From Bradyrhizobium sp. CCBAU 53421 (lineage in GTDB: Bacteria; Pseudomonadota; Alphaproteobacteria; Rhizobiales; Xanthobacteraceae): a DNA stretch of 64,000 nucleotides. The stretch covers positions 1,364,001-1,428,000 of the forward strand of contig NZ_CP030047.1 in assembly GCF_015291625.1 (NCBI RefSeq). Direction: 5' to 3'. The stretch's first letter is position 1. Each line of letters starts with the position of its first letter. Below are positions 41,495-49,016 of this stretch, in pieces. The translations under genes and the position numbers were made by a program. The notes beneath the pieces are model-generated. The model was not told the origin of the DNA, did no database searches, and worked only from the letters and a program-made list of their open reading frames with translations.

Positions 41495-42103
41495 TTACTC
41501 CTTCTTCGCCGTCAGCCCATCGACCATCGCGCGCGTCAAGGTCGAGATCTCGCTGCGTAGCGCGCCGATCGGCACCGCGATCAGCTTGTGCTCGAGGCCG
41601 AGCGCGACCATGCCATGCACGGCGGAGAACAGGCTGCGCGCGGTGACGCCGAGCTGCGCCGGCGTGCGCTGCGGAAACAACGCGGCGAGCGGCTTGTAGA
41701 TGTGGCGGAACAATTCCATCTGCTCGGTGATCGCCCATTCCGGCACCGGCTTGTCGGGCTGCATGCGATGCTCGAACAGCGCGCGCCACAGCTCGAGATT
41801 GTCGGCGGCGAAGTCGCAATAGGCGACCGCGATCCGCACCAGCATCTCGCGCGGCGCCGCCGCGCCGCCGATCTCGGCCAGCGACAGTGAGGCATCGAGC
41901 CGCGCCAGCGTGCGCGAGCCGACGCGCAGGATCAGCTCGTCGACATCCTCGACCAGATTGTAGACGCCGCCATTGGCGACCCCGATTTCCTGGGCCAGCT
42001 CGCGGGTTTTCAGGCCACCGAGACCCTTTGCCGCAATCGCCCGTTCCGCCGCCTCGATCAGCGCTTCGCGCAGTTTTGCACGTCGTTCCAATGCCTTGGA
42101 CAT
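41495..42103 (-). CDS. TetR/AcrR-family regulator of the pspA-yiaA module
   Basis: 202 aa. HTH 'LREALIEAAERAIAAKGLGGLKTRELAQEIGVANGGVYNLVEDVDELILRV'; helical ligand/dimerisation part with 'LWRALFEHRMQPDKPVPEW' and C-terminal 'LFSAVHGMVALGLEHKLIAVP' (TetR_C_33-like). Three copies of one palindrome fill the 112-base region to the divergent pspA-like gene, one copy only 26 bases before this gene's own start, so autoregulation plus control of pspA-yiaA is very likely. What ligand or membrane signal it senses is not visible. Confidence 0.9.
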   Translation of the reverse strand: MSKALERRAKLREALIEAAERAIAAKGLGGLKTRELAQEIGVANGGVYNLVEDVDELILRVGSRTLARLDASLSLAEIGGAAAPREMLVRIAVAYCDFAADNLELWRALFEHRMQPDKPVPEWAITEQMELFRHIYKPLAALFPQRTPAQLGVTARSLFSAVHGMVALGLEHKLIAVPIGALRSEISTLTRAMVDGLTAKKE

Positions 42104-42128
42104 ATTTCACCTGTCGTTAACCATATGC

Positions 42129-42199
42129 TTGAGCGTCGCTCAAATAATTCTTGAGCAATGCTCAGTATGTGGTACAAGAGATTCATGAGCGATGCTCAT
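42129..42199. promoter_or_regulatory. Three-copy palindromic operator TTGAGCnnnGCTCAA
   Basis: Sites at 42129-42143 (TTGAGCGTCGCTCAA, perfect), 42151-42165 (TTGAGCAATGCTCAG, one mismatch) and 42185-42199 (ATGAGCGATGCTCAT, perfect arms). All have 6-base arms and a 3-base spacer; starts are 22 and 34 bases apart. They span the divergent promoters of the TetR gene and pspA-like gene, a typical repressor layout. Confidence 0.75.
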
Positions 42200-42215
42200 A
42201 ACAGGGAGCGATGAA

Positions 42216-42911
42216 ATGTTCAAAACTGTTTTGACGATTTTCCGCGGCAGCGTGGCGGCAGCCGAGGAGGAACTGCAAGATCGGACCGCGCTGGTCGTCC
42301 TCGACCAGCAGATGCGCGATGCCGCCGCCGCGGTCGACCGCTCGAAGCGGACCCTGGCGCTCGCCATTGCCGGCGACGCGCAGGAGGGCCGGCGGCTCGA
42401 GGCGACCAATGCCCGGATCGCCGATCTCGAGGTGCGCGCGTCGGCCGCGCTCGACGGCGGCCGGGAGGACCTCGCTCGCGAAGCCGCCCAGGCGATCGCC
42501 AATCTCGAGGCCGAACGCGACGCCGCAATGACCGCGCGTACGCTGTTCGCCACCGAGATCACCCGGCTGAAGCGCCACGTCGCCAATGCCGAGGCGCGCA
42601 TCGCCGAGCTCGATCGCGGCCGGCGCCTCGCCCGTGCCTCGGAAGCCGTGCGTTCGCTGCGCCGGAGCGGCATCGAGGCGGCGCGGCCCTACGAAACGAC
42701 GCTGCCGGAAGCCGAAGCGACGCTGAAGCGGCTGCGCGAGCGGCAGATGGAAGCCCAGGCGGCCGATGACGCGCTGTTCGAGATCGACACCGCCTCGGGA
42801 CCGGTCGTCATCGCCGAGAAGCTCGCCGAGCAGGGCTTTGGCCCGCGCATGAAGTCGACGGCCGACGATGTGCTGGCGCGGCTGAAAGCCAGGCGCGCGC
42901 CCGCAGCCTGA
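42216..42911 (+). CDS. pspA: PspA/IM30-family phage-shock-like protein
   Basis: 231 aa, the normal PspA length. Starts 'MFKTVLTIFRGSVAAAEEEL', in the position of the PspA amphipathic membrane-binding helix, then a long coiled coil of Arg/Ala/Glu (~residues 25-180, 'DQQMRDAAAAVDRSKRTLAL', 'ARLIADLEVRAS'-type heptads). PspA proteins form ESCRT-III-like assemblies that protect the inner membrane. ATG 42216 preceded by AGGGAGC. It is regulated by TetR here rather than PspF, and followed by a YiaA gene 55 bases on. Confidence 0.85.
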   Translation: MFKTVLTIFRGSVAAAEEELQDRTALVVLDQQMRDAAAAVDRSKRTLALAIAGDAQEGRRLEATNARIADLEVRASAALDGGREDLAREAAQAIANLEAERDAAMTARTLFATEITRLKRHVANAEARIAELDRGRRLARASEAVRSLRRSGIEAARPYETTLPEAEATLKRLRERQMEAQAADDALFEIDTASGPVVIAEKLAEQGFGPRMKSTADDVLARLKARRAPAA

Positions 42912-42966: not shown

Positions 42967-43242
42967 ATGAACCAGACGATCCAACCCCACAGCGGCAGCT
43001 GGGTTGCCTTCACCTACGCGTCCTTCGCAGCTTCCGCCTTCCTCGTCGCCATCGGCGTGTTCTTCCTGCCGATCAGCATCTGGATGCAGGGCTATCTCAC
43101 GATGGGCATCGTGATGCTGGTCCAGACCTGCATCACGCTGACCAAGACGGTGCGCGACAATTACGAGAGCAGCAAGTTCGTCAACCGCATCGAGGATGCC
43201 AAGGCCGAGCGCCTGCTGATGGAAGTCTCCAAGGCGGGGTGA
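42967..43242 (+). CDS. YiaA/YiaB-family inner-membrane protein
   Basis: 91 aa with two transmembrane helices: 'WVAFTYASFAASAFLVAIGVFF' and 'GYLTMGIVMLVQTCITLTKTV', then a short conserved C-terminal tail 'RDNYESSKFVNRIEDAKAERLLMEV'. This is the YiaAB domain (PF05360), reported in comparative work as a partner of PspA in several lineages. RBS AAGGAG 7 bases before ATG. It probably anchors or recruits the PspA-like protein at the membrane under stress; this role is inferred. Confidence 0.9.
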   Translation: MNQTIQPHSGSWVAFTYASFAASAFLVAIGVFFLPISIWMQGYLTMGIVMLVQTCITLTKTVRDNYESSKFVNRIEDAKAERLLMEVSKAG

Positions 43243-43310
43243 GGCGGAGTCAACGGGACGCGGCGGGTGCTTTCACCCGCCGCTTTTGAGACGCTTTGCG
43301 CCGATCGGGT

Positions 43311-43420
43311 CCCGTCATCCTGAGGTGCGAGCCTCTTCGGCGAGCCTCGAAGGATGCACGGCCCGGCCGGTGGCCGTCGACCCTTCGAGGCTCGCTCCGC
43401 TCGCACCTCAGGGTGACGGA
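43311..43420. repeat. Intergenic palindromic repeat (family B)
   Basis: 'CCCGTCATCCTGAGGTGCGA' on the left is answered by 'TCGCACCTCAGGGTGACGG' on the right, with 'CTTCGGCGAGCCTCGAAGGATG' in between. Same family as 49304-49405, 52192-52323, 55066-55115 and 61327-61480. It fills the gap between yiaA and the five-gene cluster, separating the two units. Confidence 0.8.
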
Positions 43421-43503
43421 GAAGGAGCACGCACTTTGCCGCCACGAGCTTCACTTCTCGCAATGACGGCGTGGATGGACCGTAGGCCTCTTACCACCAA
43501 CTT

Positions 43504-43610: not shown

Positions 43611-44678
43611 ATGGCGTCCACCGACAATCCACCGCCGGCTTCGCGCGGCAGCAGGAGCCTGGCCAAGAATCTCGGCAAGGCGCGCGCGGCCCTTGACGGC
43701 CTGCGCAGCCATGGCGGCTTCTGGCTGAAGGCGCTGTCACAGCCGACCATCGATCTCACCTTGCGTACCCAGGCCGGCCAGCGCACCCGCATCGTGGAAT
43801 CGCCGGGCCTGTCGCTGCCGAAGGACGAGCTCGACGCGCTGATCGAGCAGCTGCGCATCGTTGCCGCCAAGACGCTGCCCGAGGAGAGCCTGAGCTATGG
43901 CATCTTCTCCGGGGAGCCGGAGCGCCTGTCGCGCGCCGTTGTCACTTTGATCTCCGAGGAAGAGACCGGCCGGCCGATCGCCTTCAACGCGCTATCGGTG
44001 ATGGACGTGCCGCTCGACGGCGAGCCCGCTGAAGTCACCCATCTCGGCCTCGTCATGGTCGATCCCGACGTGCGCGGGCAGGGGCTGTCCTGGGTGCTGT
44101 ACGGCCTCACAGCGCTGGTGCTGTTCGCCCGCGATGGCCTGCGGCCGAAATGGATCTCCAACGTCACCCAGGTGCCGGCGGTGGTCGGCATGGTCAGCGA
44201 CACCTTCTCGGACGTGTTTCCGTCGCCGCTGCCGGGCGCGCGGCAGAGCTTTGCGCATCTGCAGCTCGCGCGCGGCATCATGGCAAAGCATCGCGCGGTG
44301 TTCGGCGTCGGCGAGGAGGCTGGCTTCGACGAGGCTCGCTCGGTCATCACCAATGCCTATACCGGCGGCTCGGATGCGCTGAAGAAGACCTTCGGGATCG
44401 CGCCGAAGCATCGCAACGCCGTCTACAACGATTTTTGCGAGCGCGAGCTGGATTACGGCCGCGGCGACGACGTCTTGCAGATCGGCCGCGTCGATCTGGC
44501 CGGTGCGCGCCGTTATCTGATGAGCGAGGTGCCGTCGGGCTCGCTGCCGGCATTGCTCGCAGCATCCGCGATGCTGGCGCTGCAGCGGCTGGTGCTGCCG
44601 GTGGTCTATTGGATGGACGACACCCGTGCCTTCGGCACCTTGCGGCCGCGCAGGCAGGACAACGGGATCGCGCGATGA
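43611..44678 (+). CDS. GNAT-fold protein, first gene of E1-like cluster
   Basis: 355 aa. Middle part has the acetyl-CoA-binding GNAT motif A: 'VTHLGLVMVDPDVRGQGLSWVLYGLTALVLF' (R-G-Q-G-L type loop), preceded by the strands 'RAVVTLISEEETGRPIAFNALSVMDV'. N-terminal ~75 residues (AKNLGKARAALDGLRSHGGF) and C-terminal ~150 residues, ending in a hydrophobic stretch 'LPALLAASAMLALQRLVLPVVYWMDD', are unlike ordinary GNATs and may be membrane-associated. ATG 43611 has GAGGGACAG ahead; earlier in-frame ATG gives Arg-rich nonsense. Substrate unknown; next gene starts inside its stop. Confidence 0.7.
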   Translation: MASTDNPPPASRGSRSLAKNLGKARAALDGLRSHGGFWLKALSQPTIDLTLRTQAGQRTRIVESPGLSLPKDELDALIEQLRIVAAKTLPEESLSYGIFSGEPERLSRAVVTLISEEETGRPIAFNALSVMDVPLDGEPAEVTHLGLVMVDPDVRGQGLSWVLYGLTALVLFARDGLRPKWISNVTQVPAVVGMVSDTFSDVFPSPLPGARQSFAHLQLARGIMAKHRAVFGVGEEAGFDEARSVITNAYTGGSDALKKTFGIAPKHRNAVYNDFCERELDYGRGDDVLQIGRVDLAGARRYLMSEVPSGSLPALLAASAMLALQRLVLPVVYWMDDTRAFGTLRPRRQDNGIAR

Positions 44679-45550
44679 ATTTCGATTACTACTCCTTCAC
44701 CGGCCGCAACATCGGCTTCATCGATGAACACGAGCAGCAGCTGCTGCGCCAGGCGCGGGTGTTCGTCTGCGGCGTCGGTGGCATGGGCGGCGCCGCCTTC
44801 ATGGCGCTGGCGCGGGCCGGCGTCGGCAAGTTCGTGATCGCCGACATCGATCGCTTCGAGGTCTCCAACCTCAATCGCCAGGTGTTCGCCTTCGCCGATG
44901 AGGTCGGGCGCGAGAAGGCGGCGGTCGCCGCCGAAGCCGCCAAACGCATCAACCCCACCATCGAGGTCGAGGTGCTCGGCGAGAACTGGACCAGTGAGCT
45001 CGCCGGCATTGCCGAACGCTGCCCGGTCATCGTCAACGGCATGGACGATATCGCCGCCGGCGTGCATCTTTACCGGACCGCCAAACGCGCCGATGCGACC
45101 GTGATCGACGCCTACATGTCGCCGCTGCCGTCGGTGATCGTGGTGCGTCCGCACGACCCGCGGCCCGAGCAGCGGCTCGGATTTCCGACGCTGGCCAAGG
45201 ACTGGACCGACATCACCGAGGACGACCGCCGCGCGGCGATGCGTGCCGAGATCGAGCACGTGATGCTGCACTCCTCCTCGCGCAACTATGTCGACCTCGC
45301 GATCGCAGGCGAAGTCGCGGCCGGCCGCCGCAGCCGGATGTCGTTCGCGCCGATGGTGATCTCGACCGGCATGCTTATGGCCTATGAGGCGGTCGCGCTG
45401 ATCCTCGGTCGGACCTCCGGCACCGATTGCCGCGGCTGGTTCCTCAACCCGCATCGGCCGGCGATCGAGAAGCCACGCAATGCGCTGGTGGCCGCCCTGA
45501 TGCGCCCGCTGGTGCGGCGGGCGATCGATCAACTGACGGGCGTCGCATGA
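44675..45550 (+). CDS. E1-like (ThiF/MoeB/HesA superfamily) adenylating enzyme without zinc motif
   Basis: 291 aa. ATP-binding Rossmann motif GVGGMGG at residues 33-39, Asp57/Asp59 in 'VIADIDRFEVSNLNRQVFAF', Arg68-Gln69 and Lys81 ('GREKAAVAAEAAKRINP'), all positioned as in MoeB/ThiF. These enzymes adenylate a C-terminal carboxylate, usually of a ubiquitin-like protein or peptide. Here the two C-x2-C zinc pairs and any Cys in the catalytic crossover region are absent, so thioester transfer looks unlikely and it may adenylate only. ATGA overlap with both neighbours. No ubiquitin-like or JAB gene is adjacent. Confidence 0.88.
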   Translation: MNFDYYSFTGRNIGFIDEHEQQLLRQARVFVCGVGGMGGAAFMALARAGVGKFVIADIDRFEVSNLNRQVFAFADEVGREKAAVAAEAAKRINPTIEVEVLGENWTSELAGIAERCPVIVNGMDDIAAGVHLYRTAKRADATVIDAYMSPLPSVIVVRPHDPRPEQRLGFPTLAKDWTDITEDDRRAAMRAEIEHVMLHSSSRNYVDLAIAGEVAAGRRSRMSFAPMVISTGMLMAYEAVALILGRTSGTDCRGWFLNPHRPAIEKPRNALVAALMRPLVRRAIDQLTGVA

Positions 45551-46746
45551 CCTCCGGGGTGATCGCCGATTCCATCGTCAATCTCTGCGGCGCCATCGGC
45601 GTCGCGGTGGCGATGATGACGTTCTACCGGCGCGATCCCAAAAGCCCTTTGACCCGCCGCCTGCTGCTCGCGCTTGGCGTGATCGCGATCCTGTTCCTCG
45701 ACCGTGGGCTTGCGTGGTGGAGCGGAAGCTTTGTGCTCGATCGCCTCTCGGTGATCCCGGCCGCGCTGATCCCGCTCGGCGCGCTTGTTGTCACCGAAGG
45801 CATCCTGCGGCGGCATGCGCCGCGCGCGGTCAAGATCGCGGCGCTCGCCGGCGGCATCGTGCTCGGCCTCGGCGGCCTGTTCGGACTGCAGCGCTTTGCG
45901 ATGCCCTATGCGGTCGCGCTGGCGCTATTCCAGCTGATTGGTTTCGGCACCTGCGCGCTGCTGCTGGCGGCGCGCGACCGTGCCTCGCTGATGGCCTCGG
46001 AAAACCGCAGCATCGGCCGTATGGCGGTCGGCGCGCTGGTGGTGATCCCGTTCATCCTCACCGATTTCCGCACGCTATTCCCCCACATCCCGGTCCGGCT
46101 CGGCGCGTTGGGTGCGCTGCTGACGGTGACCGTGATGCTGATCGCCGGCGGCGGCGCCGAGACCCGCCGCCATGGGCTGGCGATGATGGCGCTGCGGCTG
46201 ATCTCCTCTGGCCTGCTCGGCCTCGCCGCCGCGTTCATGGCGTCCGATGTCGACGCCGCGCAGATGGTCCGGTTCGTCGCGGTCGCGATCGCCGGCGTGC
46301 TGACCATCGGCCTGATGACCGACGCGCTGCGGGCGCTGTTCGAATCGCAGGAGCCCGGCGTGCTCAATTCGGTCGCTGCGTCGCCGGCGCGGACGCGGGA
46401 GCAGTTGATCGCCGAGCTTGCGCGGCATCCGATCTTCGAGAGCGCGCGGCGTTTTCGCGAAGACGAGCTCGTATCTTACGATCCGCCGCTGCTGCGCGAC
46501 TTCCTGTCGATGAGGCGCGTGCTGCGCCGCTCCGAGGCGCCGTGGGGGCTGGCGCCGACCGACCCCGCCGCCGAGCGCATGGTTTCGCTGATGTCGGCCA
46601 ACAGCGCCTCCCATGTCATCGTGCTCGCGCACGACCCGCTGGACATCATCGTGCTCGCCGTGCCGGTGACCGCGGCCGATCCCGCCACCGAAACCGCGCT
46701 GGCGCTGGTGCGGCGGCTGCTGGCGCTGACCCCGGAGGCCAAATGA
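45547..46746 (+). CDS. Polytopic membrane protein with cytoplasmic C-domain
   Basis: 399 aa. About eight hydrophobic segments in residues 1-255: e.g. 'IVNLCGAIGVAVAMMTFY', 'LLLALGVIAILFLDRGLAWW', 'IPAALIPLGALVVTEGILRR', 'LGALGALLTVTVMLIAGGG' and 'FVAVAIAGVLTIGLMTDALR'. The last ~140 residues are soluble ('EQLIAELARHPIFESARRFREDELVSYDPPLLRDFLSMRRVLRR') and end 'AETALALVRRLLALTPEAK'-like. No transporter or enzyme signature recognised. Likely the membrane anchor or sensor of the cluster. ATG 45547 lies in the ThiF-like gene's stop overlap; the longer upstream frame is not used. Confidence 0.8.
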   Translation: MTSGVIADSIVNLCGAIGVAVAMMTFYRRDPKSPLTRRLLLALGVIAILFLDRGLAWWSGSFVLDRLSVIPAALIPLGALVVTEGILRRHAPRAVKIAALAGGIVLGLGGLFGLQRFAMPYAVALALFQLIGFGTCALLLAARDRASLMASENRSIGRMAVGALVVIPFILTDFRTLFPHIPVRLGALGALLTVTVMLIAGGGAETRRHGLAMMALRLISSGLLGLAAAFMASDVDAAQMVRFVAVAIAGVLTIGLMTDALRALFESQEPGVLNSVAASPARTREQLIAELARHPIFESARRFREDELVSYDPPLLRDFLSMRRVLRRSEAPWGLAPTDPAAERMVSLMSANSASHVIVLAHDPLDIIVLAVPVTAADPATETALALVRRLLALTPEAK

Positions 46747-47864
46747 CGCTTGAGATCCGGGAGGGCGACCGCAGGGCGGCGTTCGACGCCGCACTCAATG
46801 CCTATGGGCGCGACAGCCTCTACGTGCCGCCGCTGTGGAGCGATTTCGACCGGATGTTCGATGCCGCGAAGAACCCGTTCATCACCGAAGGCCACGGCCG
46901 CTATGCGTTATTTTCCGCGCATCGCGACGGCCGCCCGGTCGGCCGCATCGCCGCCTCGATCCACGATGCCTCGAACCGCAAGCACGGCACCCGTCACGGC
47001 GCGTTCGGCTTCTTCGACTGCATCGACGACGTCGAGGTCGCCGATGCGTTGCTGCGCGCCGCCGAGCAGTGGCTGTCCACACGCGGCATGAGCCGCGTCG
47101 CCGGCAATTTCAATCTGACGGCGATGCAGCAGATCGGCGTGATGACCGACGGCTTCGACCATGCGCCGTTCACCGACATGATGTGGTCGCCGCCGCACAT
47201 CGCGCAGCATCTCGAACGCGCCGGCTACACCGCGACCTTCCCGATGACGACGTTCGAGATCGCGCTCGACGGCGGCAAGCCGGAGCAGCTGCTCGGCGAC
47301 AAGCAGCGCGCGGTGCTGGCCGATCCGGATTTCGTATGGCAGCCGATAAAGCGCTCCGCCTTCAAGGTGCGGCTGGAGGATGCGCGGCTTATCCTCAATG
47401 ACGGCTTTGCCGACAATCCGATGTTCGTGCCGCCGACCGCCGCCGAATATCTGTTCCAGGCCGGCGACATGATGTGGATCATCGACAAGCGGATATCGAC
47501 AGTGGTCTATCACCGCGGCCGCCCGGCTGGTGCGATCATCGCGATCCCGGACCTCAACCCGTTGATCAAGGCGATCGGCGGGCGGATCGGACTATCGGCG
47601 CCGTTCAAATTCGTGCAGCACCGCATGCTGAACACGCGCGCGGTGCTGATCTATCAGTCGGTCTGCCGCGACTTGCACAATCGCGGCCTCAACGGCGCCA
47701 TGCTGTACCGCACCGCGCTGGCGCTGCAAGAGGCTGGTTACCGCACGCTCGGCGGCACCTGGATATCAGACATCAACGCTCCGTCGCTGCGCCAGGTCGA
47801 GAAGGCCGGCGCCACGCCGCTGCACCGGCTGCATCTGTTCACCAAGCGGCTGGCCGCGGCATGA
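46743..47864 (+). CDS. Second GNAT-fold protein of the cluster
   Basis: 373 aa. Type of GNAT-like protein with 'YVPPLWSDFDRMFDAAKNPFITEGHGRYALFSAHRDGRPVGRIAASIHDASN', 'GFFDCIDDVEVADALLRAAEQWLSTRGMSRVAGNFNLTAMQQIGVMTDGFDHAPFTDM' in the first half and a second acyltransferase-like half 'YHRGRPAGAIIAIPDLNPLIKAIGG'. The family is found near fatty/polyketide and lipid genes in other genomes and is of unknown substrate. Overlaps the membrane gene by 4 bases and the nitroreductase-like gene by 4 bases. Confidence 0.75.
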   Translation: MTLEIREGDRRAAFDAALNAYGRDSLYVPPLWSDFDRMFDAAKNPFITEGHGRYALFSAHRDGRPVGRIAASIHDASNRKHGTRHGAFGFFDCIDDVEVADALLRAAEQWLSTRGMSRVAGNFNLTAMQQIGVMTDGFDHAPFTDMMWSPPHIAQHLERAGYTATFPMTTFEIALDGGKPEQLLGDKQRAVLADPDFVWQPIKRSAFKVRLEDARLILNDGFADNPMFVPPTAAEYLFQAGDMMWIIDKRISTVVYHRGRPAGAIIAIPDLNPLIKAIGGRIGLSAPFKFVQHRMLNTRAVLIYQSVCRDLHNRGLNGAMLYRTALALQEAGYRTLGGTWISDINAPSLRQVEKAGATPLHRLHLFTKRLAAA

Positions 47865-48856
47865 GCGAGCTGACGCCGGATTTGCTGCACGAGCTGGTCG
47901 CCGAGGCGCGGCTGGCGCCGAGCGTCCACAACATCCAGCCGACCCGCTGGCGCCTGCTCGGCGACGGGCGGCTGGCGCTGGTCGACGACACCACCGTGCG
48001 CGCGCCGGTCGCGGATCCCGCGGGACATGATGTTCTGGTCTCGCACGGTGCGGCGCTGGAGGGCATGAGCCTTGCGCTCAACCGCCGCGGCCTCGCCATC
48101 ACGGCCATGACCACGATTGAGCAGCCGCTGTCGCCGCAATTCGCCGCGCTTTGCAGCTTTGCGATCAGGCAAGGTGTCGCGCCCGATCCGCTGGCCGGCC
48201 ATGTGACGCACCGCATGTCGTGGCGCGGCAGGTTCGAGGCGTCGCCGGACGATGCCGCGCCGCTGGTCCAGCTTGCCGTCGCGCGTGACGATTTGATCTG
48301 CATCGGCGACCGCCGGACGATTGCCGATATCGCCGGCTGGGCCGACCAGGCCGAGTTCTCCTTTGTCCGCGGCGATGACTATCGGGCCGAGCTGCTTGAA
48401 TGGATGCGGCTGGCGCCCAGCCATCCGCACTACCTGCTTGATGGTCTCAATCGCGACGCGCTCGCCATGAGCGCGGTCGAGGCGACCGCCGCCCGCTACG
48501 TGCTCGGCAGCCTGTTCAAGCCGCTCGATCGCCTCGGCCTCGCCGCATCGCTGCTGTCAGACGGCGCCAAGACCGTTTCGGCCGCGGCGATCGTCCTGTT
48601 CTGCCGTCCGGTCGGTGAGGATCCACTCACGACGGGGCGGCATTTCTACCGCGGCTGGCTGGAGATCGATCGCGCCGGTTTCGCGGCCTGTCCGATCTCG
48701 GCGCTGGCCGATCACCCTGACTTCAACGATCGGCTGCGAAAGCTCGGCAGGATTGGTGCCGACCTGCGCCTCGTCAACGTGTTCCGCGTTGGCCGGCCGT
48801 CAAAGCCGCTGAAACCGCGGCATTTCCGGCTGCCGGTCGACCGGCTCATTGTCTGA
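47861..48856 (+). CDS. Nitroreductase-fold (Acg-like) flavoprotein
   Basis: 331 aa. 'ELVAEARLAPSVHNIQPTRWRLLGDGRLALV' is the nitroreductase FMN-binding start (R-x-A-P-S-x-H-N-x-Q-P), 'AALEGMSLALNRRGL', and the last third 'GRIGADLRLVNVFRVGRPS' holds the second FMN-contact region. Length and duplicated layout resemble the Acg/Rv-type divergent nitroreductases rather than the 220-aa NfsB type. Such proteins may store or use FMN in redox modification. Last gene of the five-gene unit. Confidence 0.82.
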   Translation: MSELTPDLLHELVAEARLAPSVHNIQPTRWRLLGDGRLALVDDTTVRAPVADPAGHDVLVSHGAALEGMSLALNRRGLAITAMTTIEQPLSPQFAALCSFAIRQGVAPDPLAGHVTHRMSWRGRFEASPDDAAPLVQLAVARDDLICIGDRRTIADIAGWADQAEFSFVRGDDYRAELLEWMRLAPSHPHYLLDGLNRDALAMSAVEATAARYVLGSLFKPLDRLGLAASLLSDGAKTVSAAAIVLFCRPVGEDPLTTGRHFYRGWLEIDRAGFAACPISALADHPDFNDRLRKLGRIGADLRLVNVFRVGRPSKPLKPRHFRLPVDRLIV

Positions 48857-48926
48857 AAAATAAGCTGCAATCCCCGCTGTCAAAGCTTCACGCGGTCGTG
48901 CTATGACGCGGCCCGCCAGAGCCTTT

Positions 48927-49016
48927 CCGTTCCGATTGAATCGGAACGGGCTCTTGCTTCTAGTTTTGACGCGTTTTCTTCACGCGAACCGGTACCCACT
49001 TCGCTCGAAAACGTTC
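48927..49016. repeat. Intergenic hairpin repeat (TTCCGATTGAATCGGAA type)
   Basis: CCGTTCCGAT-TGA-ATCGGAACGG (48927-48949) is a perfect 10-bp stem, followed by the well-conserved tail 'TTTTGACGCGTTTTCTTCAC', 'CGCGAACCGGTACCCACTTC' and 'GCTCGAAAACG'. This element is a frequent rhizobial intergenic repeat as far as I know. Sits between the five-gene cluster and the zinc-ribbon gene and may end the former's transcript. Confidence 0.75.

Follow-up and report, generated by a model that had tools for sequence, protein, structure and literature searches.

A five-gene unit in Bradyrhizobium

The window analysed here is a stretch of 64,000 nucleotides from Bradyrhizobium sp. CCBAU 53421 (NZ_CP030047.1, positions 1,364,001 to 1,428,000), whose genome is one contig of 9.26 Mb. 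It contains five adjoining + strand open reading frames (ORFs) at positions 43611-48856. They encode two GNAT-type acyltransferases, an E1/ThiF-like adenylating enzyme, a membrane protein and an oxidoreductase of the nitroreductase superfamily. A preliminary description of this DNA had reported that each junction (44675, 45547, 46743 and 47861) is an ATGA overlap of a stop and a start codon, and this is correct. Its title placed the E1-like gene first, and here it erred: GNAT1 leads and the E1-like gene is second. The genes, in order, are:

43611..44678, + strand: GNAT1, predicted N-acyltransferase with an N-terminal helix and a hydrophobic C-terminal helix (355 amino acids)
44675..45550, + strand: E1/ThiF-like adenylating enzyme (E1), predicted cyclase (291 amino acids; PF00899, 126 bits)
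45547..46746, + strand: MEM, polytopic membrane protein with about nine hydrophobic segments, then an alpha/beta domain at the C-terminus (399 amino acids; AlphaFold2 model and hydropathy)
46743..47864, + strand: GNAT2, YghO-like predicted N-acyltransferase (373 amino acids; similarity to Escherichia coli YghO)
47861..48856, + strand: NTR, Acg/Rv3131-like flavin mononucleotide (FMN) oxidoreductase of the nitroreductase superfamily (331 amino acids; PF00881, 30 bits, cut-off 23.5)

The five genes form one system

When a genome collection was scanned with an alignment of E1, which selects for that gene, 207 pattern stretches and 166 relatives were found; the analysis covers the 80 best of these relatives (loci L146-L225). 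The unit genes of each locus were called by matching its ORFs to profiles of the five proteins. All five genes are present in 69 of the 80 loci, 68 of them in the order of the window and one, from Gemmatimonadales (L212), in the permuted order GNAT2-NTR-GNAT1-E1-MEM. At least one gene is spread over more than one ORF in four of the complete loci (L153, L165, L167 and L197). Seven further loci read GNAT1-E1-MEM-NTR and four are cut by contig ends. The hosts include Bosea, Ensifer, Rhizobium, Mesorhizobium, Roseibium, Sphingomonas, Lysobacter and Cupriavidus.

The seven loci without a linked GNAT2 were at one point read as a series of nested losses that would give the order of the pathway. This was dropped because GNAT2 lies elsewhere in all seven genomes, at 51-55% identity. 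The unlinked copies are uninterrupted ORFs of 368-391 amino acids, and no other unit gene was found within the 16-17 kb fetched around them. Four of the eight genome matches to GNAT2 were flagged with one internal stop; in the four loci fetched, this stop terminates an ORF that is uninterrupted. In a control genome (L214) only its own linked GNAT2 copy was found.

A search that was not selected for E1 points the same way. GNAT2 was searched for in 297 genomes of the order, and five close matches (49-64% identity) were found beyond the genome of the window. All five sit in a complete five-gene unit in the same gene order. Matches of any kind occur in 70 of the 297 genomes, 64 of which have only distant relatives at about 25-34% identity; in the six distant-relative loci that were fetched, no other unit gene is present.

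The overlaps recur as well. In 21 Bradyrhizobium loci an in-frame ATGA is found at 20/20 GNAT1-E1, 20/21 E1-MEM, 21/21 MEM-GNAT2 and 19/20 GNAT2-NTR junctions. The corresponding counts in the 59 other loci are 40/58, 33/59, 31/50 and 22/50. The MEM-NTR junction has it in three of seven cases, and the single NTR-GNAT1 junction is without it. Support for the overlaps comes from this recurrence across loci and not from a shuffle test. The five genes are one system, as the preliminary description had proposed. Its own counter-test, a search for scattered and independent relatives, was run and left the proposal standing, with two kinds of exception: the unlinked GNAT2 in seven of the 80 loci and, in 33 of 107 Bradyrhizobium genomes, GNAT1 and MEM alone.

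Three genes are present or absent together in Bradyrhizobium

One draw of 107 Bradyrhizobium genomes was searched with thresholds of E<=1e-40 for E1, E<=1e-10 for GNAT2 and E<1e-80 for a close NTR. The three were found in the identical 12 genomes, with the NTR of one (G213) in two pieces. Eight further genomes have only NTR relatives at 27-32% identity. GNAT1 is present in 45 of the 107 genomes and MEM in the identical 45, some of the latter partial at contig ends, and there are MEM remnants in two more. The remnant loci (L083 and L084) gave no matches to TetR, PspA or GNAT1.

Besides these two remnant loci, 38 of the 44 other GNAT1/MEM loci were fetched. Nine are complete, as in the window, and 29 have GNAT1 and MEM only. 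In all 29 of the latter the stop codon of GNAT1 is still an ATGA, with MEM in the overlapping frame. On a tree of GNAT1 (46 rows) the complete and the GNAT1-MEM states require two changes, and whether these were both losses or one a loss and the other a regain, three genes changed together at two places. GNAT1 and MEM without the other three genes would presumably give a plain N-acyl amino acid.

Features of the five proteins

Four of the five proteins can be assigned to a family or a fold. The E1-like protein keeps the residues of an adenylating enzyme. Glycines 33, 35, 36 and 38 and residues D57, D59, N65, R68, Q69, K81 and D124 are invariant in 81 of 81 sequences, which agrees with what had been said of the window's protein. 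Zinc-binding CxxC pairs define the MoeB/ThiF cofactor enzymes, and a C..C pair after ORF residue 100 occurs in none of the 81 sequences. The absence of an invariant catalytic cysteine also holds: outside C32, a near-invariant residue (78/81) directly before the glycine-rich loop, no cysteine column exceeds 52/81 (C252 52/81, C116 36/81). By its residues the protein does not look like an ordinary MoeB/ThiF or ubiquitin-like E1, which supports the preliminary description in part. Its best NCBIfam model is PRK08223 with 116.6 bits (cut-off 266) vs 89.7 for ThiF and 88.3 for MoeB, and PRK08223 also has the best E-value across six members. The same model scores 406 bits on the ThiF protein of another locus (L235), which is encoded between an exosort_acyl acyltransferase gene and an NTR gene. 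The N-terminal pattern F.Y.....R[NT][IL]G[FW]....EQ is common to all nine aligned proteins (four from units and five reference proteins). In an unrooted tree of 42 rows the unit E1 proteins form their own group (support 93/94), separate from groups of seven reference ThiF proteins (100/98) and 13 MoeB-like rows (98/95). For this tree 14 MoeB-like loci were chosen, one gave no row, and one row is very long.

GNAT1 has a confident GNAT fold by fold search and a hydrophobic C-terminal helix by hydropathy. GNAT2 aligns with E. coli YghO at 26% identity over 98% of its length (E 3e-26). Acetyltransf_1 was matched (E<=0.01) in 32 of 35 GNAT2 orthologues and not in the GNAT2 of the window itself. Genes for an aminotransferase, an acyl carrier protein (ACP), an NAD-dependent epimerase and a fatty acyl-AMP ligase adjoin E. 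coli yghO, and we take these to be sphingolipid-type genes and YghO to be an enzyme of the bacterial ceramide synthase (bCerS) type. The bCerS enzyme is described as a cytoplasmic acyltransferase in passages that do not name YghO (PMC11087976). Three E. coli records labelled 'plasmid' (H20-H22, from a plasmid collection) look chromosomal: two are 4.8-4.9 Mb long and the third bears lptF, lptG and glc genes.

MEM was modelled by AlphaFold2 with a pLDDT of 93 and a pTM of 0.85, and the model has about nine hydrophobic segments followed by the alpha/beta domain; it gave no Foldseek match at E<=0.001. Of the five proteins MEM is the least conserved: beyond Bradyrhizobium, Bosea and a few close relatives, its identity to the protein of the window is 20-34%. 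GNAT1 and GNAT2 retain at least 45% and at least 47% identity to the window proteins in the sets aligned. NTR matches NF047509 with 138 bits (cut-off 199), and a profile of six NTR members matches the solved structure of Acg (2YMV, E 1.2e-12).

Genes and sites around the unit

The genes immediately upstream, which the preliminary description did not mention, encode a TetR-family regulator, a PspA-family protein and a YiaA/B protein. Features around the unit are:

41495..42103, - strand: TetR-family regulator, divergent; a match adjoins PspA in 38/38 fetched Bradyrhizobium loci, in three pieces in one of them (L068)
42130..42142, no strand: palindrome TGAGC-N3-GCTCA, putative operator 1, with conserved copies in the TetR-PspA gap
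42152..42164, no strand: putative operator 2, same palindrome and gap
42186..42198, no strand: putative operator 3, same palindrome and gap
42192..42911, + strand: PspA/IM30-family protein (PF04012, 90 bits); the start may be 42216, since the alignments of many homologues begin at residue 8-9
42967..43242, + strand: YiaA/B two-helix protein (PF05360, 59 bits)
48926..48950, + strand: terminator-like hairpin about 70 bp past NTR, from a consensus scan that found 10 vs a shuffle mean of 4.8, a weak sign taken alone

TetR, PspA and YiaAB matches lie upstream of GNAT1 in all 38 fetched Bradyrhizobium loci. A TetR relative at L175:3768-4382 matches TetR_N and TetR_C_33, and in Ensifer a 'WHG domain-containing protein' is annotated beside PspA. 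The palindrome TGAGC-N3-GCTCA is present in two to three copies in 57/57 Bradyrhizobium TetR-PspA gaps (42104-42215 in the window), which are not 57 independent genomes because several records occur in both locus sets. TetR and PspA are adjacent in 78 loci, and the remaining 1.46 Mb of these contains a single copy. Genome-wide there are six such sites, three of them here, and four sites of a reversed control pattern. For other genera TGAAC-N3-GTTCA was looked for in 17 of 21 gaps and is present in three copies in 16 and in two copies in L197. These palindromes are likely TetR operators. No such palindrome was found upstream of GNAT1 in 79 of the 80 loci (two of them without GNAT1; L184 lay outside the scan), so direct control by TetR is unsupported where the unit is convergent to the TetR module. 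The spacing between YiaAB and GNAT1 in the window is 368 bp, which makes a separate promoter possible. Within this gap lies an inverted-repeat-like stretch (43290-43480), which we take to resemble the intergenic repeats of Bradyrhizobium. A second YiaAB match stands between YiaAB and GNAT1 in nine of the GNAT1-MEM loci (L076, L077, L079, L086, L088, L089, L090, L094 and L096).

In the 80 loci the neighbours include PspA (41), YiaAB (40), TetR (40) and a RoxA-like cytochrome (23). Each of the 23 RoxA-like ORFs has at least two CxxCH motifs, as in a di-haem cytochrome c. RoxA-like and PspA genes never occur in one locus. A RoxA-like ORF also adjoins the unlinked GNAT2 in three of the seven such loci (L245, L247 and L248); two of these three genomes have the unit beside PspA (L192 and L196), so the exclusion is by locus and not by genome. 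The genome of the window has two RoxA-like Pfam matches above the cut-off and one below, none of them within the window. An Aas-like fusion is near full-length in 18 of the 80 loci, and half of one is present in L197. A first tally of 20 had included L219, which was not counted because its 513-amino-acid ORF spans 333 of 1152 residues. Ten Bosea-like loci have the order PspA-YiaAB-Aas-GNAT1 onwards, and in Ensifer the TetR/PspA/YiaAB module is convergent.

Small ORFs of 25-115 amino acids outside the five unit genes were collected within 3 kb in 62 loci, and the 14 largest clusters are YiaAB or ORFs that lie over the Aas-like and RoxA-like genes. The earlier statement that no carrier or ubiquitin-like gene is nearby is upheld for these clusters, and it is left partial by larger neighbours, not all of which are annotated.

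A possible lipid pathway and its alternatives

The preliminary description knew of no characterised pathway with this composition, and this is now outdated. According to passages of the papers concerned, TyzA N-acylates amino acids, the ThiF homologue TyzB uses ATP to cyclise the product, and desaturation by the nitroreductase-family oxidase TyzC yields acyl-oxazolones (PMC10404671), while TrzA and the ThiF-oxidase fusion TrzS do like chemistry on tryptophan (PMC12856293). The D217A change in the ThiF part of TrzS gives acylated tryptophan only (PMC12856293). OxzAB is cited alongside TyzABC and TrzAS (PMC10404671, PMC12856293). Comparative genomics and deletions of nasY connect NasY, ThiF and nitroreductase genes with N-acyl dehydrotyrosines, and the candidate clusters of Massilia umbonata have no ThiF and nitroreductase genes and give saturated products only, in the parts of the source that treat them (PMC12479983). 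A paper on the five-gene set itself was not found in the open-access literature searched.

We give slightly better than even credence to the reading that the unit is a proteobacterial variant of the acyl-oxazolone and N-acyl-dehydroamino-acid lipid pathways, extended by a YghO-like acyltransferase and a polytopic membrane protein, and with an oxidase that is Acg-like. We infer the substrates, the order of reactions, the product and what GNAT2 and MEM do as follows. GNAT1, for which a GNAT fold is seen, would acylate the amino group of an amino acid, with acyl-CoA or acyl-ACP as the donor of the fatty acyl chain. The E1-like enzyme, with ATP, would adenylate the carboxylate of the N-acyl amino acid, and the amide oxygen would close an oxazolone ring, as its family and its residues suggest: the ATP site is present, the zinc pairs are absent, and there is no invariant thioester cysteine. 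NTR, by analogy with its family, would act as an FMN oxidase that desaturates the alpha-beta bond before or after cyclisation. The co-occurrence of GNAT2 suggests that it may act on or with the product of these steps, either by adding a second acyl chain or by trapping the reactive ring on an amine. Most tentatively, MEM might sense, retain or move the lipid in the inner membrane. The unit of Bradyrhizobium and Bosea follows a putatively TetR-controlled PspA/YiaAB module, which probably ties the lipid to membrane maintenance. The preliminary description had proposed covalent modification of a peptide, lipid or protein carboxylate. Adenylation, acyl-transfer and flavin-redox enzymes are indeed kept together; the characterised Tyz/Trz and Nas-linked chemistry makes a small lipid a likelier substrate than a peptide or protein.

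Several observations weigh against this assignment. The lead of PRK08223 is modest, lies below the cut-off and spans only residues 2-146 of E1; the unit E1 proteins share only 24-29% identity with reference ThiF proteins and have their own branch in the unrooted tree. GNAT1 has no NCBIfam match at E<=0.1, and no FeeM or NasY row is among the matches listed in its fold searches, which does not amount to an exclusion. The Acg/Rv3131 model gives NTR 138 bits and the Rv1355c model 39 (six of six members match both), and the unit NTR profile scores the NTR of L235 at only 11.5 bits (E 0.0013). The E1-like gene is patchy: a scan of a family-level draw matched 118 of 119 genomes, mostly with MoeB-like proteins, and the one orthologue-strength match is that of the window, with a wider but patchy distribution shown by the genus and collection scans. 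The literature adds two points. In PMC12479983 no oxazolones are reported for its three families and the role of ThiF there is called 'enigmatic', and passages of PMC10404671 link oxazolones to FDO-A and place the FDO-B genes of Mycobacterium tuberculosis away from such genes.

The lack of a detected N-acyl-amino-acid-synthase signature in GNAT1 and the Acg-like character of NTR would also fit another small-molecule amide pathway, in which the amine acylated by GNAT1 is not an amino acid, GNAT2 takes its acyl group from an acyl-adenylate made by E1, and NTR reduces instead of oxidising. GNAT2 is found in all 12 E1-bearing Bradyrhizobium genomes and in all 76 loci that are complete or have an unlinked GNAT2, as such a pathway would have it. 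We consider this unlikely, since for GNAT, ThiF-like and nitroreductase-family enzymes a chemistry has already been worked out in Tyz and Trz, as far as PMC10404671 and PMC12856293 describe it. Activation of a peptide or protein carboxylate of the MccB/PaaA kind, or as in ribosomally synthesised and post-translationally modified peptides, has E1 adenylating a C-terminus that the GNATs and NTR decorate, and appears somewhat less likely still. Among the many E1 folds that E1 matches in the PDB are MccB (42.8 bits) and PaaA (42.2 bits), and the missing zinc pairs and missing invariant catalytic cysteine would suit them; TcdA, ThiF and MoeB outscore both (54-58 bits), the neighbours are of a lipid type, and the 14 largest clusters of small ORFs (at least 25 amino acids, outside the five genes) hold no recurrent precursor-like ORF.

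Two other uses of a ThiF domain are very improbable here. As the E1 of a ubiquitin-like conjugation or defence module (Bil-like or cyclic oligonucleotide-based antiphage signalling, CBASS-like), the protein does match 33 PADLOC families through its ThiF domain, the best being an E1-E2 model with 49 bits. Among the 25 PADLOC matches listed, about 60-130 positions are covered of models 426-778 long, E1 has no invariant cysteine outside its glycine-rich strand, and no E2, JAB or ubiquitin-like gene occurs among the annotated neighbours, most neighbour clusters being without annotation. The ThiF domain might equally mark a MoeB/ThiF enzyme of cofactor synthesis, which we find the hardest to credit: the genome has a stronger match to the ThiF family at another place (C1:77421, 250.6 bits), E1 is without CxxC pairs, and 95 of the 107 Bradyrhizobium genomes have no E1 match at E<=1e-40.

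Within the lipid pathway that we prefer, a bolder and rather doubtful extension can be drawn. GNAT1, the E1-like cyclase and the Acg-like oxidase would together produce an oxazolone, a ring-activated N-acyl amino acid, which GNAT2 would take as acyl donor or acceptor to form a membrane lipid, a lipoamino acid with two chains. MEM would sense or move this lipid, which would be tied to membrane maintenance by PspA, and the pathway would be an undescribed one that is widespread in Proteobacteria. If this is true, GNAT2 gives oxazolones a metabolic destination. Their physiological role is called a major unresolved question in a passage of PMC12856293. The five-gene version in soil bacteria such as Bradyrhizobium and Bosea, with its two extra co-conserved partners and, in some lineages, PspA/YiaAB neighbours, would be a direct route to oxazolone function. 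Candidate next steps of the pathway are GNAT2, MEM and, in other lineages, the RoxA-like di-haem cytochrome, and the genomes with GNAT1 and MEM only are a natural comparison set.

Comparison with known systems

In its composition the unit is like the oxazolone pathways, which falls short of established membership. A ThiF-like protein, a nitroreductase-superfamily oxidase and a GNAT are clustered, with MEM and GNAT2 between E1 and NTR. TyzABC (Rv2336-Rv2338c), TrzAS (Rv1356c-Rv1355c) and OxzAB (Pseudoalteromonas rubra) likewise have a GNAT-type N-acyltransferase, a ThiF-like cyclase and a nitroreductase-superfamily oxidase side by side, as separate proteins in Tyz and with a ThiF-oxidase fusion in Trz and Oxz. 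This likeness is drawn from published descriptions, in the passages cited above, and not from direct comparison of the proteins. Unlike these systems, the unit adds the co-conserved MEM and GNAT2, its oxidase scores as Acg-like, and GNAT1 has no detected family in common with theirs.

The NasY-type clusters of thalassotalic acids, kyonggic acids and stieleriacines are similar in that acyltransferase (there an N-acyl amino acid synthase), ThiF and nitroreductase genes overlap or nearly so, and in that a relative with the synthase only exists. Massilia umbonata, with saturated products and without ThiF and nitroreductase genes, offers a parallel to those Bradyrhizobium genomes that have GNAT1 and lack E1 and NTR. 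GNAT2 and MEM are absent from the comparative-genomics section of PMC12479983. Locus L235 looks NasY-type and has an exosort_acyl enzyme, a family that GNAT1 does not match. GNAT2 resembles the YghO or bacterial ceramide synthase type in its full-length alignment to E. coli YghO, and departs from it in its low identity and in a unit where no aminotransferase-, ACP-, epimerase- or AMP-ligase-type genes were seen. NTR is closest to the Acg/Rv3131 FMN oxidoreductases, which supply both its best family model and its best solved relative. It differs from them in scoring below the family cut-off and in sitting with a ThiF gene, an arrangement that the passages of PMC10404671 do not report for FDO-B.

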